A stretch of DNA of 64,000 bases from Hysterangium stoloniferum (taxonomy: Eukaryota; Basidiomycota; Agaricomycetes; Hysterangiales; Hysterangiaceae), in assembly GCA_015178975.1 (NCBI GenBank), contig WHVD01000032.1, positions 717,884 to 781,883 on the forward strand. Direction: 5' to 3'. A program made the position numbers and the translations under genes. Each line of letters opens with the position of its first letter. Positions within the stretch are counted from its first letter, which is position 1. The notes below the pieces were generated by a model, which was not told the DNA's origin, did no database searches, and saw only the letters and a program-made list of their open reading frames with translations. Shown in pieces: positions 3,330 through 64,000 of this stretch.

Positions 3330-5114
3330 GCAACACCAAAAGGCTCTAGTGGAAAGGCTGTCTTTACACCCAGACAGGTCCCATAGGCCCCCAACAAGGC
3401 ACCAACAGCATGATTCGAGTGCTTCCCGTCACCAGACCAAGCCATGTAAGAGTGCCCCAACACAGTCAGCACCATCTCTTTTGCACGTCGAAATTTTGAA
3501 AATCTCAGAATCACATGGAAATGCATTTTTAAGCATTCAGAGACTCAAAAAAAAAGTCAAAATTTGTAAGTCCTACTACTTGGCAAGGGTGAATTATTTT
3601 TCAAGTTTTAAACCTGGGAACTGGAGGAATGGATTCCAACCCCACGGTGTAGCCAGCATCATGCTGTGAGCCGCTGTGTGGTCGACCTTGCATGCTGAGC
3701 AAGTCGATGTCTGGCCTGTATTGTAGGAATCATGGATGTATGTAGATGCAGTGTCACTCAGCAACTTCTGAGTATGGGTAGAGGAGTTCAAGTGTGGCTA
3801 ACCCTGTTGTAGGAATGGTGGATGTAGATGCAGTGTCACTCAGCAACTTCTGAGTACTGGTAGAGTAGCTCAAGTGTGGCTAACTCTGTTAAGACAAGTT
3901 TGAGTGCAACTCTCTTGGTTTGTGAGGTGTGGTATTGGTGAGATTTTATGCTATAGATATTGTCAAGTAAGGAATTTGTAAGAGCTAGGCATCGGGGCCC
4001 ATAACCTGTTGTAAAAGTAGGCTATGTGCACAGGGTACAAGTTCCTAAGACAATATCTGGATCAACCTCTTCTGTAGTGCATGCTTCCTGTCTACTTTAT
4101 ACTACTTTGTGTCCATTGTTCTATCTAAATAGGTGTAACAAAAGATGCATAAATCCACAGCTAATATGCCACTTAGAATAAGGGGGACAATGGGAATCTA
4201 AAAATAAATCAAGTGGCTGTTGTACTCAGCGGTAGTTCAATCACTATGCTTTCTTTTACAACAACACTCAATGTCAAAAACCCCTTTGGTTTTGGAATTA
4301 AATCAGTGCAAACTGTAGCAGAGGTTTGGAATGAACTTACTACAATGTATGATGTTATCTCTGACATTGGTCATTGAAACATAGAAAATACCCTGTTGTC
4401 ACAAATGGGAATGGAGCAGGAGACTAGAAGATCTGTACATACATCTGTACTTAACCAGGAGGTCTGGTTCTTAAAGACAAGTGGCTTCAACTTATGTCCT
4501 CACATGGACTGTCTAGGTGCTCTGGTATTTTGAAACAAACAAGAAGTACATCTTGAACAAAAGTAATCAACATTTAGCTAATAATTAGGGGTCCAAAGTC
4601 TAAGGTCAAGGAATGGGTTAAGTCTCAGGCTGGCTGAAGACTAGAGTACAAAAGTAGGATGTTGGGATTCTCATCTTTTCAGGCCCCTGTAACTTGTTTT
4701 CACTCTGGCAAATCTCCAGCATCCTGGTATCAGTATCCCTGACTACAGTATCACTGCCTTTGGCACTCCAATACTTGGTTTACTATAGATTAACCTTTTA
4801 GTCATTCCATTCCACTTCTGTCCTGATGCTTTCCCATTATCTGCCCTATGTATACACATCATTTGCCATCTCAAACTCTTTTTAGTATCTTCCTATTTAC
4901 TTTGCATTTAGTTCCTATCATCCTCCATTTTGTCACTTGCTTCATTTGATCCATTTGTCTTCTTACCTCCATGATCAGCCTCCCAACCACCTATCTTGTT
5001 TTAGTATAAAAATTTCATCTTGTATACTACAGTTCTTTAGTTCAAATATTGACTAAAGTTCCCCAACTCTTTACTTAATCCTCTTCAAGATGTCTTTGGT
5101 CAGCCAAGATTCTT
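3330..5114. other. Retroelement debris without intact genes
   Basis: I find no supported gene here. The stretch after the truncated integrase holds a short tandem duplication (3724-3889). It also holds AT-rich sequence whose parts (about 4400-4620 and 4660-4760) resemble pieces at 7340-7470, 56050-56300 and 58590-58680, so it is probably old LTR or internal retroelement sequence of another family. Open frames are short and look random. Confidence 0.5.
3724..3889. repeat. Two-copy tandem duplication, about 83 bp per unit
   Basis: Units 3724-3809 and 3810-3889 both begin GTAGGAAT, share a long identical core over GCAGTGTCACTCAGCAACTT, and end GTGGCTAACYCTGTT. They differ by a few substitutions and a small indel. 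No coding role is visible. Confidence 0.8.
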
Positions 5115-5288
5115 GTTAAGTGCTATGTCGGGAACATATTCTGGAACTATTGGAAGGTGACTGGAAACTTGGGAACTTTCAGATAGAGTCAGGACATTGG
5201 CTTCAGCTTATGTGTTGTACCCCTATGCAAATGCTCGGAATGTCCTTAATTTCAGAGATGGGATTTACACAGGAAGATTATAGATATT
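5115..5288 (-). mobile_element. LTR family B fragment
   Basis: The stretch starts GTTAAGTGCTATGTCGGGAA and continues collinearly with the family B LTR at 59231 (for example CATTGGCTTCAGCTTATGTG) for about 170 bp. It is then interrupted by a degenerate family A LTR near 5289. Many CpG sites of the 59231 copy appear here as TpG or CpA. Confidence 0.65.
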
Positions 5289-7538: not shown

Positions 7539-7912
7539 TGTTATGACCCATTCCCAGATACTTCAATCTTCCATAATTATCCAACTTTCCACCCCTGACT
7601 CTCCAACCCAACTTTCTGACCTGACTTCTGACTATGGAACATTTATAGTTCCCATACTTCTGAACCCCATTTTTGTTCCACATTTGGTAACTTGTCAGTT
7701 GAAAAGTATTCATTTGTTTGTTTGTTGTATTCCCATTTCAGAATACTTGCCTTAATCCACCTTATTATCCTAGTTTGTAGTACAAAAATGAAAGAACTTA
7801 TACATATTAGTTTCCATGAATTTGTACTTTACCTTAGATCTGATATTGACTTAGTTTCTTATTCCTTCCTTCTTTCTATATCCTCAATATTCAGAACTCT
7901 TCAGAACTCTGA
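7539..7912 (+). mobile_element. LTR family B remnant, inverted relative to 57262 and 59231
   Basis: It begins TGTTATGACCCATTCCCAGA, matching the reverse complement of the end of the LTR at 59231-59813. It stays collinear through the TAGTTTCC...TTTGTACTTTA...AGATCTGATAT segment to the AATATTCAGAACTC segment near 7890. The other end is lost. Decayed 7-bp units (TCAGAAG and TTGGAGAG type on the complementary strand) are visible near 7580-7640. Confidence 0.65.
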
Positions 7913-8491
7913 ATATTGTCCTACCTGTCATAATCACAACATTATCACAAAAACATTCAAAAAAACATTCGACTCATCTTTAACAAAATACTCTAACTCA
8001 ACATTCTATTTGACATTTTCCACACCCTCATGAGAAGAAAGCTCAACTCAAGGAAACAAGACAGTCAACAGATTGGCAAGGAGAGTATTCGACTTAAGCA
8101 CAATGTGTGGACCTGGTAGGCTAGTGTAGCTAAATGAGCAAGTGATGTGATATTGACAATGATAATGTAAATACATGATTTGAGCCTGTATTTATACTAG
8201 TCCAGGATCCTGCTTACTAAGTAATGTGACTAGGAGAATCAGTCAGTATTTCCCATACTGACTCATAGGTGGATTCAGAGTCATCTGATCAACTATGACT
8301 ATGTATCTGAGTCATAGATCATCCCTACTCACAGCCTATTGATATGACTAGTCATGAGTCAATGAGTCATCTCCCTCAGTATGTAGTCAAGAAGACAAGG
8401 CAGATTACATACTACAAGGGTTAGAGACACCTGATTATGTAATCCATGACTCTGCTGGTTTCCACAGGATTACTATGGCAATGCCACCTAG
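7913..8491. other. LTR family A scrap followed by sequence with no visible gene
   Basis: About 7925-8040 resembles the sense 5' part of family A (CACAACATTATCACA, ATTCGACTCATC). From 8041 to 8491 I see no gene and no clear repeat beyond many ATGAGTCA/TGACTCAT-like words. Confidence 0.4.
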
Positions 8492-54523: not shown

Positions 54524-55014
54524 GGATCAAAGAGTTGTCGAATATTACCTTTGAATGTTTGTGACAATATTGTGACTTGTGACAGTTGTGACAGGTAGGG
54601 GTGGCAGTAGAAGATTTCTTCTTAGGGAGGTGTACATGTCAATGTGCCATACACTTGCCAATAGCTACAAGAGCATCACCAATCTGACAATAAGTGCCCC
54701 TAATAGTGACTTGACAATGAGCAGCTTGACCTCTTGGAGAAAAGGTCACCATTGCCTTTGAGATGTCATGGATCTGTTTCAATCTGATCCTGTCTCAACC
54801 AATAACATGTCCAGCCTGTGTCTCTGGGACAGCAATGGTACATATTATCTTCATCTGGATGTCTGATTTAGATAAAGCAGGGAGACACTTTGGATGGCAG
54901 GCACCCTGAATTGGGGTGGAGGTAGTTGGCTTGGCCTTCGAGGAACGAGGTTGAGGGTTGCATGGCATCATAAAACAGTTGATGTGAGGTGGTAGGGTGG
55001 CTATGTATTTAGAG

Positions 55015-55587
55015 AGTGGAGTGGAGTGTAGGCCTAGAGTGGAGTGGAGTGTAGGCCTAGAGTGGAGTGGAGTGTAGGCCTAGAGTGGAGTGGAGTGTAG
55101 GCCTAGAGTGGAGTGGAGTGTAGGCCTAGAGTGGCGTGGAGTGTAGGCCTAGAGTGGAGTGGAGTGTAGGCCTAGAGTGGAGTGGAGTGTAGGCCTAGAG
55201 TGGAGTGGAGTGTAGGCCTAGAGTGGAGTGGAGTGTAGGCCTAGAGTGGAGTGGAGTGTAGGCCTAGAGTGGAGTGGAGTGTAGGCCTAGAGTGGAGTGG
55301 AGTGTAGGCCTAGAGTGGAGTGGAGTGTAGGCCTAGAGTGGAGTGGAGTGTAGGCCTAGAGTGGAGTGGAGTGTAGGCCTAGAGTGGAGTGGAGTGTAGG
55401 CCTAGAGTGGAGTGGAGTGTAGGCCTAGAGTGGAGTGGAGTGTAGGCCTAGAGTGGAGTGGAGTGTAGGCCTAGAGTGGAGTGGAGTGTAGGCCTAGAGT
55501 GGAGTGGAGTGTAGGCCTAGAGTGGAGTGGAGTGTAGGCCTAGAGTGGAGTGGAGTGTAGGCCTAGAGTGGAGTGGAGTGTAGGCTA
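55015..55587. repeat. 23-bp minisatellite, 25 units
   Basis: AGTGGAGTGG/AGTGTAGGCCTAG is repeated 24 times at exactly 23 bp plus a last unit of 21 bp lacking CC. Only one internal substitution stands out (GGCGTGG, unit six, 55130-55152). Each unit contains the palindrome AGGCCT and a purine-rich run. It lies between the 5' LTR and the gag-like ORF of the non-autonomous element. Confidence 0.95.
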
Positions 55588-55623
55588 GAGTGGAGTGGAT
55601 GTGGTGCTAGTAGCTTGTTATTC

Positions 55624-57261: not shown

Positions 57262-57785
57262 TGTTAAGTGCCATGTCAGGAACTATTGGATAGGGTTAGA
57301 ACGTTGGCTTCAGCTTATGTGCTACGCCTCTATGCAAATGCTCAAAAGTCCTTAATTTCAAAGGTGAGACTTATGATGGAAGATATGGATATTCAGAGTT
57401 CTGAAGAGTTCCGAATATTGAGCGTACAGAAAGACGGAAGAGGGAATAAGAAACTAAGTTGATATCAGATCTGAAGTAAAGTACAAATTCGCGGAAACTA
57501 ATATAAGTCTTCTCATTATTGTACTACAAACTAAGACCACAATAAGATGGAAATGGAAGTATTCTGAAATGGGAATATAACAAGACAAATTGGGAAGACA
57601 ATATTCTGAAACAGGAATATAATAAACAAATGAGTGAATACTTGTCAACAGACAAATTACCAAATGCAGAACAAGGGAAGAATGTGGAAGATACGGTAAC
57701 TATGATGTTCCGTAGTTGGAAGTTGGAAGTTGGAAGTCAGAGGTCGGGAGTCAGATATTGAAACATCCAGGAACAGGTCATAACA
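57262..57785 (-). mobile_element. Solo LTR, family B
   Basis: A 524-bp LTR starts TGTTAAGTGCCATG and ends CAGGTCATAACA, with an exact 5-bp duplication CTTGT (57257-57261 and 57786-57790). It is collinear with the LTR at 59231-59813 but shorter and poorer in CpG. Six 7-bp units (TTGGAAG/TCGGGAG type) lie at 57716-57757, the same place as the CGG array of the younger copy. Confidence 0.92.
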
Positions 57786-58679
57786 CTTGTTCACCTTGCA
57801 TTCCTACATTTTGAGATAATAGAAAATCCATACTATCCTCAATTCTAGTCTTTAAGCCTCCATCCACTGCAACTGGCCCCTCCTGCATTTCTACCTCACC
57901 TTACTGTACCAGCATCTCCAGCCTCTCAGACATTTTCTGGCTTTTGGACAACCTGCAGCTCCTTGGGGCATTTCTTGGCCTTTCTTTTGCACTCTTGGCT
58001 TTCCAGGCAATCCTTGGCCTTTAGGCAATCCTAGCCATTTTGGCATCCTTGGCTCATATGGGCATTTTCTGGCCCTTGAGTGTTCCAATTTCTGGCTAGT
58101 CTCATATCCTTGGAGTCCCCAGACTTCCCAGTTCTCATCCAGCATATCCTTGGAACCCAGACTTTCCAGTGTTCATACAGCATGTTCCCAGACCTCCCAG
58201 TTCTATGACATTCAGCCATTTGGGCATTTTCTGGCATTTTCTGGCACCCCTTTTTTGCCTTGGGCAATATTTTGGTCCTTTATGGAAATTCCTGGTCCAT
58301 TCAGGCATTTTCTGGCCTTTCTGGCACTTTTCTGTCCTACTGAGTAGCCTTTTCAGCATTGCCTTGAACTCTTTGTACTTTGGCATTTTGGATTTTCAGC
58401 ACCCCTATTCCCCTTTACCTTGCTCCTCCATTCTCCTACCTCAAAGCCTCTAGCCCTCTGCCTACCTTATCCTCCATCATTCTTCAGCCCTCCAATTTTC
58501 AGTCACACTTTGTTATTTTTATCCAAGGAATTGCATGAGGAATCCACACATCATCTTCCAGAAGGTCTCATAGGGTCTTAACCTAATAAAGGATACTGTT
58601 AGGATCGTCACTCTTTCAGGCCCTCACAACCTGGTCTTACCCTGATAACCTTTCTGGGACCCCAACATCAGTGCCTCAG
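57786..58679. repeat. Degenerate quasi-repeat region
   Basis: From about 57900 to 58380 words of the type CATTTTCTGGC and CCTTGGCA recur irregularly, for example twice in a row near 58225-58250. This makes long overlapping frames on both strands that are not genes. About 58590-58680 resembles 4660-4760 and is probably retroelement-derived. Confidence 0.55.
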
Positions 58680-59230: not shown

Positions 59231-59813
59231 TGTTAAGTGCCGTGTCGGGAACTTATTCCGGAACTATCGGGAAGTCACCGGGAAGTCGGAAACTCGTGGA
59301 TAGGGTCAGGACGTCGGCTTCAGCTTATGTGCTGCGCCTCTACGCAAACGCTCAGTGTCCTTAATTTCGGAAGTGAACTAACGACGGAAGATATGGATAT
59401 TCAGAGTTCCGAAGAGTTCCGAATATCGAGCGTACAGAAAGATGGGAGGAGGAATAAGAAACTAAGTCGATATCAGATCTGAAGTAAAGTACAAATTCGC
59501 GGAAACTAATATAAGTCTACTCGTTATTGTACTACAAACTGAGACCATAATAAGACGGAAACGGAAGTGTTCTTAAAACAGAAATACAATAAGACATATT
59601 AGGAAGACAATATTCCAAGACGGAAATACAACAACAAACGAGTGAATACTTGTCAATGGACAAATTACCAAATGCGGAACAAACGAAGAACGCGGATGAT
59701 ACGGTAACTATGATGTTCCGTAGTCGGAGGTCAAAGTCGGAAGTCGGGGATCGGAAGTCGGGAATGGGAGACCGGAAGTCGGATATTGAAACATCCGGGA
59801 ACGGGTCGTAACA
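59231..59813 (-). repeat. 3' LTR of the chromovirus (family B)
   Basis: A 583-bp LTR: in minus sense it starts TGTTACGACCCG and ends GGCACTTAACA. The polypurine tract lies immediately upstream in that sense. U3 therefore begins at 59813 and contains the phased CGG array at 59737-59785. Confidence 0.9.
59737..59785 (+). promoter_or_regulatory. Phased 7-bp CGG array in LTR U3
   Basis: Seven adjoining 7-mers occur: TCGGAAG, TCGGGGA, TCGGAAG, TCGGGAA, TGGGAGA, CCGGAAG, TCGGATA. CGG stands at 59738, 59745, 59752, 59759, 59773 and 59780, exactly 7 bp apart, with one unit mutated to GGG. CGG triplets are the usual half-sites of Zn2Cys6 proteins. The array lies about 155-205 bp upstream of the TATA box of the antisense gene and 30-75 bp into the element's U3. 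Confidence 0.75.
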
Positions 59814-59941
59814 GTACCCCCCTGTTAGGCCGAAATCCCATAGAGGCGATTAGGTACTGAGTGTTTGAAGCGACGGCTGATTGTTATGTGTCGTGAAATT
59901 TACACAAATATGGAGGTGAGAGTTTCGGCTGTTATTCTGAG

Positions 59942-59949
59942 TATAAAAA
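59942..59949 (+). promoter_or_regulatory. TATA box of the antisense gene
   Basis: TATAAAAA stands 49 bp upstream of the ATG at 59998, in a stretch between the purine tract and the ORF. The position suits a core promoter for plus-strand transcription, opposite to the retroelement's own transcript. Confidence 0.6.
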
Positions 59950-59997
59950 CCTCCAAATATTCGAATTAACGTTTTTGTTTCTTTAACCACAACTTGT

Positions 59998-61152
59998 ATG
60001 TCGATTCGTCGGCCGTTATTCATCACTACCCCGGAAGACTCAGATACCGAAATATCTGTACTTCAAAAGATGTCGAAGGTCGCAGAACTTCAACAAAAAC
60101 GCCAGAAAATGGAGGAGTTGAAGCGACGACAGGAAGAGGAGGAAAGAGCGTTGATGCAGGAGTTGAAGGATGCAGAGGAGGCGGAAAAGCGGGAATTGGA
60201 GCGGGCGAGGGCGGAGAAAGAAAAAGAGTTGGCGAGGTTGCGGAAAGTGATGGAGGATCGGAGGTTGAAGGAAGAAGAAGTGAGGAAACAACAAGAAGCT
60301 GAGGCGGCGGAAAAACGTAAGGAGGTAAGGGAAGGAAAGGTGAGTCCGATTCCATAGATTTCCGTGGTTCCAACCGATAACTGTTGCGTACAGCGAAAAG
60401 CCGTGGAGGTGGAAGTAGAGGGAGAAGCTGGGCCTTCGAGTCCTAAAGTAAGTGTATCTGTAACGGAAACGGTAGTTGTTTAACCTCCGAAACAGAAACC
60501 AAAGGTCAAAGCTCCGGAACGAATGGAAATCGTCCATGAAACTCCGTGTTATCGATGTTCCATACGGAACATGACGTGTTGGAAACAGAAGGTAAAATGG
60601 GGCGGAACTTGCTATCCTTGCGCGGTTCTCAAACTTCCGTGCACCCTTGCCTCAAAAAGGGTTCCGAAAGGTGAGAAGACTCCGAAACCTAACGACACGG
60701 GAAGTTCAGGAGTGGCCAAAGCTACGGAAACTGAAACGTCGAAAATGGATAGTACAGGCATTGAGCTTCTCAAGGACACCGTCGACGCGTTGGTTTTTAT
60801 CGGGACGGAAGTCATGAAAATGCGGGATACAATGGATCGTCATAATGATATCCAGGAGAAAGGTTTCCGTTCGTTGGTCCGGAATTTCCGGAGGCAAAAC
60901 GATTTCCTGGAGAAGATAATGGTTAGCATTGGTGTGATCGCAGTATCCGAGGGGTTTTCCGATAAGGCACGGGAAAAAGCTAATGATCCGTTGGTGGAAT
61001 GTGTTGGAAAGAGGTGGGTGTCGGGAAAAGGGCCGGAAGAATCAGAGAGTGAAGATGAAGAGGTACAGGATATGGTGGAGAGTGCAGAAATTGCTGAAGA
61101 GCCGGAGGTTGGGACGGAAGGTGGATTTGGGGTGTCAGAGACTTTAAGATAG
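59998..61152 (+). CDS. Antisense chromovirus gene: coiled coil plus Zn2Cys6-like cluster
   Basis: Plus-strand gene lying between the chromodomain and 3' LTR of a minus-strand gypsy element. Exons 59998-60339, 60394-60447 and 60496-61152 give 350 residues. Intron 1 is 54 bp (GTGAGT...TACAG) and intron 2 is 48 bp (GTAAGT...AACAG), the latter removing an in-frame TAA at 60481. Residues about 20-115 form a highly charged coiled coil (ELKRRQEEEERALMQELKDA). After a Pro/Lys-rich linker comes CYRCSIRNMTC, ten residues, CYPCAVLKLPC. This is C-X2-C-X6-C-X10-C-X2-C-X6-C, the GAL4-type Zn2Cys6 spacing, with basic residues (KQKVK) in the linker. The C-terminal half is helical then acidic (ESESEDEEVQDMVE). 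A gag function is an alternative, but strand, own TATA box and introns argue for a separate regulator. Confidence 0.75.
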
Positions 61153-61243
61153 ATTTAATAATATTTTTTTTTTTGACTTGTAAAACCTAAAACGAGTGTG
61201 AAAACGGAAATGTCGGAAACTTGAACAGAAAAGAACAGAAAGA

Positions 61244-64000
61244 TTAGAGTGATGATAAAGGTCCGGGTTTGCCTGGATAAGCCGTGTGGAAGTCAGTAAC
61301 AATTTCCATAGCATGTCCAAGTTCCGTGGCCAATATCCATGAAGTTTCCTCGTCGGTACCTTCATAACCTGCCCATTTGACTAAATAGAGCAATTTACAA
61401 GTATGTCGGCAATTGTCGATTTTAGAATCCAATATTTCGGAAACTTCGAATTCGGGTTCTCCATCAATGATGACCGGAGGGGACGGAGGTTGAATACGTT
61501 CCGGGAATGAGTTAGGAACACAAGGTTCTAACATGGAAACGTGGAAAACGGGGTGGACTGCTCGCATACTGTCGGGAAGACGGAGAGTCCATGAAAGTGA
61601 ACCGGCTTGTGCTATAATTTCAAAAGGTCCTAAGAATTTCTCAGCGAGTTTTTTAGAAGGTCAGGTAGTACGGAAGAATTGAGCTTTTACAAAAACCTGA
61701 TCACCAACTTTAAAATTAGGAGGCGGATCCTGTTTTTGTCCGCGGAACGTTGATAATGTTCCTGTGCGGAAGAAATAGCTTTCCGAAGTTCTTGATGTAA
61801 TTCGTCGAGGTCGGTAATAAATTCTTGAGCACGGACAGAAGCCAAATCTCGTTCGGAATGTACTGTGAGATTCGGATTATAGCCTTTATTGGCGAAGAAG
61901 GGAGATATGCCGGTGGTTGCATTCGGAGAGTTATTGTAGGCGAATTCCGTGATCGGAAGAAGGGATTTCCAGTTGTCCTGTTGGTAATTACAATAGATGC
62001 GGAGATATTGTTCCAGTGTTTGATTAACGCGTTCCGTTTGTCCATCACCTTCTGGGTGATATCCCGAGGTGAAGTGTAGTTTCATGTCGAGGGCTTTTCC
62101 GAGGGCCTGGAAGAAATGGGAGACGAACTTGGAGCCTCGATCGGAAGTTACGTGAGATGGAACTCCGTGTTTGGAAAATACGTGAATAATGAAAAGTTCC
62201 GCTAATTGTAAGGATGTGATTGTATCATGAGTGGGTATGAAAATGCCTTGTTTCGAGAATCGGTCCACAACGACTAGAATGGATGTAAAGCCTTCGGAAG
62301 TCGGGAGTTGTTCGATGAAATCCATGGAAATTGAATTCCAGGGTTTTTCTGGTATCGGGAGTTGCTTGAGAAGGCCGTACGGCTTATGCCTCTGGGTTTT
62401 GGAGCGTAAGCAGGTGGTGCATGACTTACAGAACTGAGTTACGAAATCTCGGAGGTTGGGCCAAGTATATTCTCTACGGATTAAACCAAGAGTATTGTTG
62501 ATGCCGTAATGTCCGGAGATTGGATGATCGTGTTTATACTGAAGTACGCGGAGTCGAAGATTGTCGGAATCTGGAACGTAGATACGTCCATCGAGACGGA
62601 TAAAACCTTGAGAGTCTTGTGACCATCGGGGTTGGTTGGGATTGTCGGGAATGTCTAAATGTGGCTTGAGGGCCGGGTCGGAAGTGAGTGCGGAAAGGAT
62701 ATCTTGATGTAATTGTTCAATGTCCATAATCATGACGCTACGCATAATTGGATAGTAAAGGGAAGTTGCTCGGATAGATGCGGAAAGTTGTTGCGTTGTA
62801 AAAACCGGTTTCAGGTTATGTGGATTAACAACAGCGTAGTTACTTTCCCCCTCTTTAGGATAGACGTCCCATCGTCGAGTCATGGCATCTGGTTTTCCAC
62901 CAAGACGTCCGGGTCGGAAACGGATAATCATGTTGAAAGCGGAAAGAAATTCAGACCAACGGGCCTGCGGCGGGTTAAAAGTTTAGTGGTAGAAAAATAT
63001 TCGAGATTTTTGTGATCGGTAACGACGTCAACGGGAGTTGCGGAACCTTCGAGATAATGGCGCCAATGTTTGAAAGCTTCAAAAAATTGCCAAAAGTTCC
63101 TTATCATGAACGTCGTAATTTGAGTTCGGATATCTGAAAGTGTCCGAGAAAGAAATGCGATCGGATGAATTTCACCGTCGGACTCTTGAATGGAAAGAAT
63201 CGCGGCAATTGCATAATCGGAAGCATCGGTTTCCACAATAATCGGAAAATCAGGTTTCCAATGGGAAAAGGATCGGGGCAGAAGTGAAAGCATTTTTTAA
63301 AGTCTGGAAGGCGGAGCGGCATTTGTCGTCAAAAACCCATGGTTGAGTTTTACGGGTAAGACGAGTGAGCGGTACTGTAATATCCGAGTAGTTCCGAATA
63401 AAACGACGGTAAAAGTTGGCGAAACCTAAAAATGATTGAATGTCCTTGACCTTCCGTGGTTCGGGCCAGTCACGGACAACTTGAACCTTGGTTTCATCCA
63501 TACGGAGACCATCAGGGCCGATGATGAAACCTAAGTATTCAATAGAATCCATGTCGAAATAACATTTTTTACCGTTGGCGAAAAGACCGTTTTTACGGAG
63601 TCTTCGGAAGACTTCACGGACCTGTTCATCGTGAAGAGCGGGATCCTCGGAAAATACCAAAATGTCGTCCAAATAGACTATAACACATACGTCAAGCATG
63701 TCGGAAAATATATCATTAACAAAACGTTGAAAAGCGGAAGGGCGTTGGTAAGGCGAACGGCATAACCAACCATTCAAAGGATCCATAGCGAGTCCGAAAA
63801 GCAGTTTTCCATTCGTCACCCTCAGCAATTCGAACCAAATGATAGGCATGTTTGAGGTCTATTTTGGTGTAAATTCGAGCTTTCCGTGGGGCGTCGAGTA
63901 AGTCGGTAACGAGTGGGAGTGGATACTTATCTTTCCGTGTGATGGAATTTAATCCTCTGAAATCGACACAGAGTCGAAGGGAGCCATCCTTTTTTACGGA
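61244..64000 (-). pseudogene. Chromovirus pol (RT-RNase H-integrase-chromodomain), frameshifted
   Basis: RT reads [20 protein letters not shown], then in another frame [20 protein letters not shown] with the YLDD catalytic box (near 63680). RNase H shows ETDASDYAIAAIL and DHKNLEYF. Integrase has the HHCC finger (HPISGHYG...CKSCTTC) and the core acidic residues in SMDFIEQLP, TSDRGSKF and the NQTLEQYLR glutamate. The chromodomain reads EVSEILDSK, LYLVKWAGYEGTDEETSW. Frame changes occur near 63770, 63085, 62955 and 61735, and a TGA stands at 61661-61663. At least two fall at or next to homopolymers (A6 at 63082 region, A5 at 61735 region), so some may be sequencing errors rather than decay. Confidence 0.88.

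Follow-up and report, generated by a model that had tools for sequence, protein, structure and literature searches.

How a retrotransposon comes to carry an intron-containing gene on the strand opposite to its own coding sequence, and what the product of such a gene could do for the element, are the questions raised by one end of the 64,000-nucleotide stretch of Hysterangium stoloniferum DNA analyzed here (referred to as the window). A preliminary description had placed this gene on the + strand, antisense to pol (which runs on the − strand) and between the chromodomain and the polypurine tract of a gypsy element. That position is upheld, with a 3′ LTR found beyond the tract (Table 1), and the coordinates, strand, intron lengths, TATA box, and product size given there are likewise correct.

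Table 1. Features of the element and its antisense gene (window positions unless a locus is named)
Feature	Position	Strand	Remarks
3′ LTR, TGTTA...TAACA	59231..59813	-	92.6% match to second LTR of full C334 copy
Tandem array in LTR, period 21, 2.4 copies	59734..59783	.	several CGG per unit
Polypurine tract region adjoining LTR	59814..59830	-	by eye
CGGAA saturation	59231..64000	.	69 sites on both strands vs 18.3 expected from dinucleotides
TATA box of antisense gene	59942..59948	+	TATAAAA in 40/41 other copies
Antisense gene, 350 residues	exons 59998-60339, 60394-60447, 60496-61152	+	TATA 59942, ATG 59998, stop 61152
Exon 1: ATG and charged helical region	59998..60339	+	dN/dS 0.27
Intron 1, 54 bp	60340..60393	+	donor GTRAGT 40/41, acceptor CAG 41/41, lengths 51-55
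Exon 2	60394..60447	+	length 54 in window copy and 41/41 others; dN/dS 0.14
Intron 2, 48 bp	60448..60495	+	donor GTRAGT 40/41, acceptor CAG 40/41, lengths 47-49
Exon 3: Zn2Cys6-like cluster, helical region, acidic tail, stop	60496..61152	+	dN/dS 0.26
Six-cysteine cluster C-x2-C-x6-C-x10-C-x2-C-x6-C	60547..60642	+	spacing also in P0002 and in families B and C
pol end, SH3-like domain and chromodomain	61244..61660	-	Pfam SH3_Tf2-1 60.2 bits, Chromo 27.4 bits
Integrase	61687..62982	-	Pfam Integrase_H2C2 and rve
RNase H and reverse transcriptase	62928..64000	-	split over frames in window copy, ends at contig end
gag	L082:2673-3536		Pfam Retrotrans_gag
CCHC-type motif adjoining gag	L082:2274-2672		by eye; no Pfam match at E 0.001

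The carrier has the features of a Ty3/gypsy chromovirus, namely the order reverse transcriptase (RT), RNase H, integrase, a C-terminal chromodomain, LTRs, and, in the C334 copy, a target duplication. This full copy, read as two separate stretches (L042 and L082), has an LTR at both ends (99.1% identity over the 339 bases that form the main block of their alignment), the 3′ one with an internal deletion, and a 5-bp target duplication, GATTC; gag, protease, RT, and the intron-bearing antisense gene all lie between its LTRs. The earlier proposal that antisense introns survive retrotransposition fits this copy, in which the duplication and the intron-bearing gene occur together. The window copy and 28 further loci align from the LTR through the integrase. 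Older, CG-poor relatives of the LTR, 77–83% identical, are also found in the window at 57275-57785, 7722-7916, and 5114-5288.

Conservation of the gene was assessed in an alignment of the window copy with 41 other copies from the same genome, comprising L040-L056 and L058-L068, obtained by a DNA search, together with 13 copies of greater divergence (L069-L081); L057, cut by a contig end, was left out. The ATG is kept in 40 of these 41 and all three exon lengths are divisible by three in 36, while intron lengths shift by numbers not divisible by three and the exons mostly stay in frame. Mismatches at codon positions 1, 2, and 3 amount to 0.084, 0.083, and 0.177. Pooled Nei-Gojobori estimates, in which the pairs are not independent, give a dN/dS of 0.26 for the spliced frame, 1.20 and 0.95 for the remaining sense frames, and 1.00, 0.34, and 1.21 for the antisense frames. 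The value of 0.34 is read as a mirror of the gene, because that frame shares its third positions with the gene frame, and with 1.00 and 1.21 in the others a coding gene opposite to the exons was rejected. Divergence increases from the 150 bases upstream of the ATG (0.078) through exon 3 (0.110) to exon 1 (0.129). Searching the genome with exon 3 yielded 1003 first-look candidates, a figure that is no copy count, and the 150 scored were 71–100% identical. That the antisense gene is real and carried by the element is nearly certain, and the predicted removal of its two introns by splicing is supported by the comparison of copies. Its end and that of pol converge on a short spacer with a T run (61153-61302), the length of which differs strongly among copies, from 93 to 150 bases.

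Other copies had been expected to carry the ORF, and they were found not only among the 41 aligned copies but also in sister families. L085, one of five other elements picked as controls, proved to be a close relative and led on to L090 (family B; the family of the window element is referred to as A). In L090 an antisense gene of 298 residues occupies the same place, with introns of 53 and 48 bases that follow REGK and GPSSPK, matching the sites in the window gene, and with the cysteine spacing 2-6-10-2-6. With its exon 3 as query, 151 matches were obtained out of 648 candidates, of which 150 were scored; 8 matches are 100% identical, and a large group lies at 62–65%. L091, taken from the latter group and referred to as family C, has splice sites and spacing as in L090 and introns of 50 and 47 bases. 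The stretch L091:1-2600 (C167:19650-22249) is a chimera, in which LTR and gag are followed by the antisense gene with a truncated exon 1 and by an inverted pol end; the junction is whole in 1 of 40 scored matches and looks like a one-off product. Adjoining the family B LTR, an open frame at L090:2211-2804 resembles, by eye, a Tc1/mariner-type transposase.

A metagenome protein, P0002, is 43% identical over 99% of the window protein and has all six cysteines. Exon 3 alone retrieved no homologue at E 0.001, profile A1 gave three matches at E 10 (P0002 and two H. stoloniferum proteins), and P0002 was the sole match of profile A2. Among the three A1 matches the cysteine cluster is present in P0002 only, the two Hysterangium models aligning to later parts. 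A search of IMG/VR returned no homologue, and among solved structures there was none matching profile A1 and no relevant one for A3. In P0003, one of these two Hysterangium gene models, a piece of the antisense gene is fused with some 80 residues from a different repeat family, for which matching open frames reach 1923 codons; against contig C113 the model is 96% identical over residues 1-92 and 90% over 77-154.

The most informative part of the product is the cysteine cluster, whose codons 1 to 6 are kept in 40, 41, 41, 40, 41, and 41 of the 41 other copies. Zn2Cys6 proteins have the spacing C-x2-C-x6-C-x5-12-C-x2-C-x6-8-C, with a middle loop of x6 in GAL4. The window spacing of 2-6-10-2-6 falls inside this range (PF00172), and Zn2Cys6-type spacing with a middle loop of 5–16 arose in 1 of 200,000 shuffles of the exon-3 protein. 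The cluster announced in the preliminary description is thereby borne out, but not its exact GAL4 spacing, given a loop of x10. Comparison with Zn2Cys6 profiles, which had been proposed as a check, was divided in its outcome: Pfam Zn_clus (PF00172) scores the window protein at 8.7 bits, below the cut-off of 21, whereas hhalign against eight host Zn_clus domains, a pairwise comparison with no database search, gave a probability of 66.8 and a pairwise E of 5.3e-5 with six cysteines aligned. The cluster segment scored 26.3 versus at most 17.2 in 60 column permutations. Weak Zn_clus matches were obtained for 7 of 16 A1 members (best E 2.2) and 2 of 6 A3 members, and a Pfam scan of the family B and C proteins gave no Zn_clus match. 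Because spacing and profile similarity agree but the Pfam score fails, the cluster is referred to as Zn2Cys6-like.

A gag zinc knuckle was rejected as the identity of the six cysteines, since gag sits at the opposite end of the element with a CCHC-type motif of its own; the earlier placement of the cysteines outside that family is thus sound. The window cluster shares its cysteine spacing with the fungal Zn2Cys6 factors and resembles host members in profile-profile comparison, but it differs in coming after a long charged region rather than close to the N-terminus, in being borne by a retrotransposon, and in remaining below the Pfam cut-off. The antisense protein is considered likely to bind DNA. 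The exon 1 product is a charged, E/K/R-rich stretch in which a 3.5-residue hydrophobic periodicity is reached by 79 of 5000 shuffles in the window gene and by 3291 of 5000 in a sister family; a single charged helix fits as well as the coiled coil originally suggested, which is unproven.

CGG is the classic half-site of Zn2Cys6 proteins, and for this reason words in the element were counted. CGGAA occurs at 14.5 per kb in the element versus 1.7 per kb in the host, at 89 sites versus 25.8 expected when part of L082 is included, and at 28, 23, and 15 sites in the element tiles versus at most 6 in 23 host tiles. Its density is 27.5 per kb in the LTR, 16.5 in the gene, 11.9 from chromodomain to RT, and 9.6 from gag to RT in L082, and it is absent from the 186 bases separating LTR and ATG. 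One-base variants stay near expectation, with an excess of at most about twofold (observed/expected: CGGAG 29/14.8, CGGCA 17/8.1, CGGTA 18/9.4), and the positions flanking CGGAA hold little information. Over the LTR array (59734..59783), 18–20 bases per 150-base window are missing in L052 and L056. The density of CGGAA is 0.54 per kb in the copia remnant of the window and 0 in its gypsy remnant, and L086-L089 (1.5 kb each) have 0, 0, 2, and 3 sites; the value of the six control elements is weakened because four of them are CG-poor. Shuffling of synonymous codons reached the observed CGGAA number in 0 of 1000 trials for the gene, integrase, and RT-RNase H, in 13 for protease, 74 for gag, and 84 for the chromodomain. 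Codon usage or protein sequence as the cause is accordingly rejected for the first three and weakly so for protease, and the gag and chromodomain shuffles do not reject it.

In families A, B, and C the density of CGG itself is 41–46 per kb (B 41.2, C 45.8) versus 19.2 in the host. The sisters are rich in TCGG, with 22.4 (B) and 23.5 (C) per kb versus 5.4 in the host, and their CGGAA reaches only 4.4 and 3.5 per kb. Their top tetramers (z 7.1 in B and 6.5 in C) exceed all host tiles (n = 9 and 13), whereas among pentamers none stands out, the top values being 5.5 in B (no CGG word) and 4.3 in C versus host maxima of 5.4 and 6.1. The candidate self-recognition motif is CGGAA in family A, and B and C lean to TCGG at the level of tetramers only. 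CGGAA is biased 63:26 toward the gene-sense strand, where the G/C ratio is 1.34–1.61; TCGG prefers the same strand in B (14:9, 14:7, and 22:9 by part) and likewise in C, with the preference reversed in the A gene (4:8). In the LTR and most coding parts, CGGAA (TCGG in the sisters) favours the strand antisense to gag-pol; the element as such is also strongly skewed in G/C.

Selection acting on individual CGGAA sites was also considered and found no support. Across 28 copies (LTR, gene, integrase), CG was retained no better at CGGAA sites than at other CG sites, with 14 of 28 differences positive, a mean difference of 0.007, and a Wilcoxon p of 0.48. Three measures of retention gave p values of 0.10 (intact word), 0.38 (CG), and 0.011 (other three bases), only the last being nominally low, and in the LTR CGGAA is intact less often than other CG words (0.77 vs 0.82). 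A signal seen with six copies (124/126 vs 324/375, p 3e-5) is gone with 28; the six were a subset picked for an earlier display and restricted to the gene region, and are not counted. Decayed copies keep CG alike in both classes (69/203 CGGAA, 231/606 other).

The gene also stands out by its mosaic variation, as copies that are about 95–100% alike in pol differ in patches of it. Divergent blocks extend over about 60390-61050 in C517 (69–90% identity), about 60131-60330 in L060 (72–84%, with the LTR partly at 87–91%), and about 60831-61030 in L052 and L056 (79–87%). The highest mean pairwise differences per 100 bases, 0.196 and 0.138, fall in the gene, versus 0.015–0.086 in the remaining intervals. 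Within the exchanged blocks dS is 0.56–0.66 and dN/dS 0.20–0.29, versus a dS of 0.06–0.07 in the other exon of the same copy (C517 and L060); old functional alleles therefore appear to have been swapped into these copies, most simply by template switching. No accompanying motif switch was seen in the LTR and pol of the C517 copy, which keep CGGAA despite an altered cluster loop. The gene region holds 14–15 CGGAA sites in L070, L073, and L074 and 19–25 in L058-L068.

As a CGG-type protein fold and a CGG-type saturation share one element, the most economical account is a protein serving its own family through these motifs. The reading considered close to an even proposition is that the element encodes a sequence-specific, VANC-like DNA-binding regulator that recognizes its own family. 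The TATA promoter beside the 3′ LTR would drive an antisense transcript, from which the host spliceosome would take out the two small introns; because these are antisense to the genomic RNA, reverse transcription would copy them intact. The protein, predicted to consist of a charged N-terminal helix, the Zn2Cys6-like cluster, a helical region, and an acidic tail, would bind CGG-type motifs, CGGAA in A and TCGG-type ones in the sisters, which pervade the element and reach their greatest density in the LTR. Like VANC for Arabidopsis VANDAL, it might serve as an activator or anti-silencing factor that keeps its family expressible, and it might feed back on the promoter of its own gene, which adjoins the LTR array. 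Activation or anti-silencing is favoured over repression, since the gene persists in families that have several identical copies and the motifs fill both body and LTR. Counting against self-recognition are the Zn_clus score below cut-off, the single CGGAA sites that are not kept better, the weak outcome of the codon shuffles for protease, gag, and chromodomain, the unchanged motif in LTR and pol of C517, the want of an outstanding pentamer in B and C, and a strand bias not expected from simple DNA binding.

A broader and more doubtful reading, judged less likely than not, is that of a fungal LTR lineage with self-recognition, in which each family has an antisense spliced zinc-cluster gene and an element-wide target motif, protein and motif shift together between families, and gene blocks are exchanged. 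Fast divergence and block exchange of the gene would fit such a moving protein-motif pair. Confidence in this broader reading was lowered slightly because the family-specific motif rests on tetramers only.

That the protein acts instead on RNA, particles, or integration targeting, with CGGAA as a separate matter such as an RNA element or a compositional trait of the lineage, is somewhat unlikely. The gene-sense bias of CGGAA with its G/C ratio, the indifferent retention of single sites, and the lack of any DNA-binding Pfam family above cut-off speak for it, but the excess is one sharp pentamer, extends to the noncoding LTR and beyond codon usage, and is more than skew suffices to explain, and the cysteines are spaced as in a DNA-binding fold. 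HBZ, a bZIP protein of the animal retrovirus HTLV-1, is a repressor. By analogy, the antisense protein could act on the LTR motifs as a self-limiting repressor, lowering synthesis of genomic RNA and bounding copy number or host damage. The anatomy agrees in the points examined: the window gene is antisense and adjoins the 3′ LTR, it has a TATA box of its own, and the LTR contains a cluster of motifs. PMC11963269 describes HBZ as nuclear and encoded antisense; like the window gene, it belongs to a retroelement, lies close to the 3′ LTR, and probably has a regulatory role. However, the motifs occupy the coding body besides the LTR, and the gene is kept in families with several identical exon-3 copies, which an activator fits at least equally; a repressor is thus judged unlikely. 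A captured host gene without a role for the element is very improbable: the cluster does resemble host Zn2Cys6 domains, yet the gene is under purifying selection within the family, is present in three highly divergent families, and has no host copy among 42 Zn_clus matches, all of which lie elsewhere. A chance antisense ORF, for which the want of a confident Pfam family could be cited, has a negligible probability and is ruled out by the dN/dS of the spliced frame, splice sites, frame keeping, and cross-family homology.

The preferred reading, a regulator of the element's own family, has partial parallels in known systems. Plant Tat-lineage elements (Retand with TRP28, maize Grande, rice RIRE2) have an antisense gene between pol and 3′ LTR that is kept across families, as here; according to the accessible part of PMC11963269, TRP28 is a predicted DNA binder and the Grande product is nuclear and, by a title, has its own promoter. 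Unlike these non-chromovirus plant elements, the window element is fungal, and it combines a chromodomain with an antisense gene that has two conserved introns and encodes a Zn2Cys6-like cluster; the text of PMC11963269 contains none of the words intron, fungi, and zinc. Pfam scans gave no TRP28-type match, the Pfam content for a TRP28 domain being uncertain, and the chromodomain argues against the Retand lineage. VANC/VANDAL is the model for motif accumulation (PMC5735166, PMC10398659, in the portions available): there too an element-encoded protein with conserved and variable regions is associated with a short motif, accumulated partly in tandem repeats and differing between families. VANDAL, however, is a DNA transposon with a different protein, its binding and anti-silencing are demonstrated while here they are proposed, and the VANC21 motif lies in noncoding parts whereas CGGAA occupies coding parts too.

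A further likeness is offered by nuclear group I introns of myxomycetes, whose antisense homing endonuclease genes contain a small spliceosomal intron (47 nt) and are expressed in vivo (PMC9548176, in the part available), although element and protein type differ. An algal DNA transposon with an opposite-strand gene is described in the accessible text of PMC12477816. Among the titles and abstracts of the matches listed, subscription papers being mostly outside, no such gene was found in a fungal LTR element, nor did a term search of the available text of a Laccaria TE paper bring up any ORF described as antisense or additional.

New in this analysis are the CGGAA saturation, densest in the LTR, the sister families, and the block exchange. 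The element offers a testable case of a retrotransposon with its own predicted sequence-specific DNA-binding protein and candidate sites, and illustrates how retrotransposition can carry along an intron-containing gene of host type. It would unite plant antisense accessory genes, retroviral antisense regulators, and transposon anti-silencing factors. If self-recognition is true, LTR retrotransposons would have a counterpart to VANC/VANDAL that is based on a fungal transcription-factor fold, and if the protein binds CGGAA, host genes near the LTRs could come under its control.

A few further features were noted along the way. In the window, a minisatellite of period 23 (25.6 copies, 99% matches) extends over 55013-55599, and 57880-58340 is occupied by a degenerate, CTTGGCATTTTCTGGC-like repetition that includes several tandem repeats, all of them weak. 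Elsewhere in the genome (G000), L002 (C115:73449-76550) and contigs C56 and C209 each show several Zn_clus matches within about 1 kb; some of these share an open frame and the layouts are alike at several places, possibly reflecting a multi-cluster gene family or another repeat.
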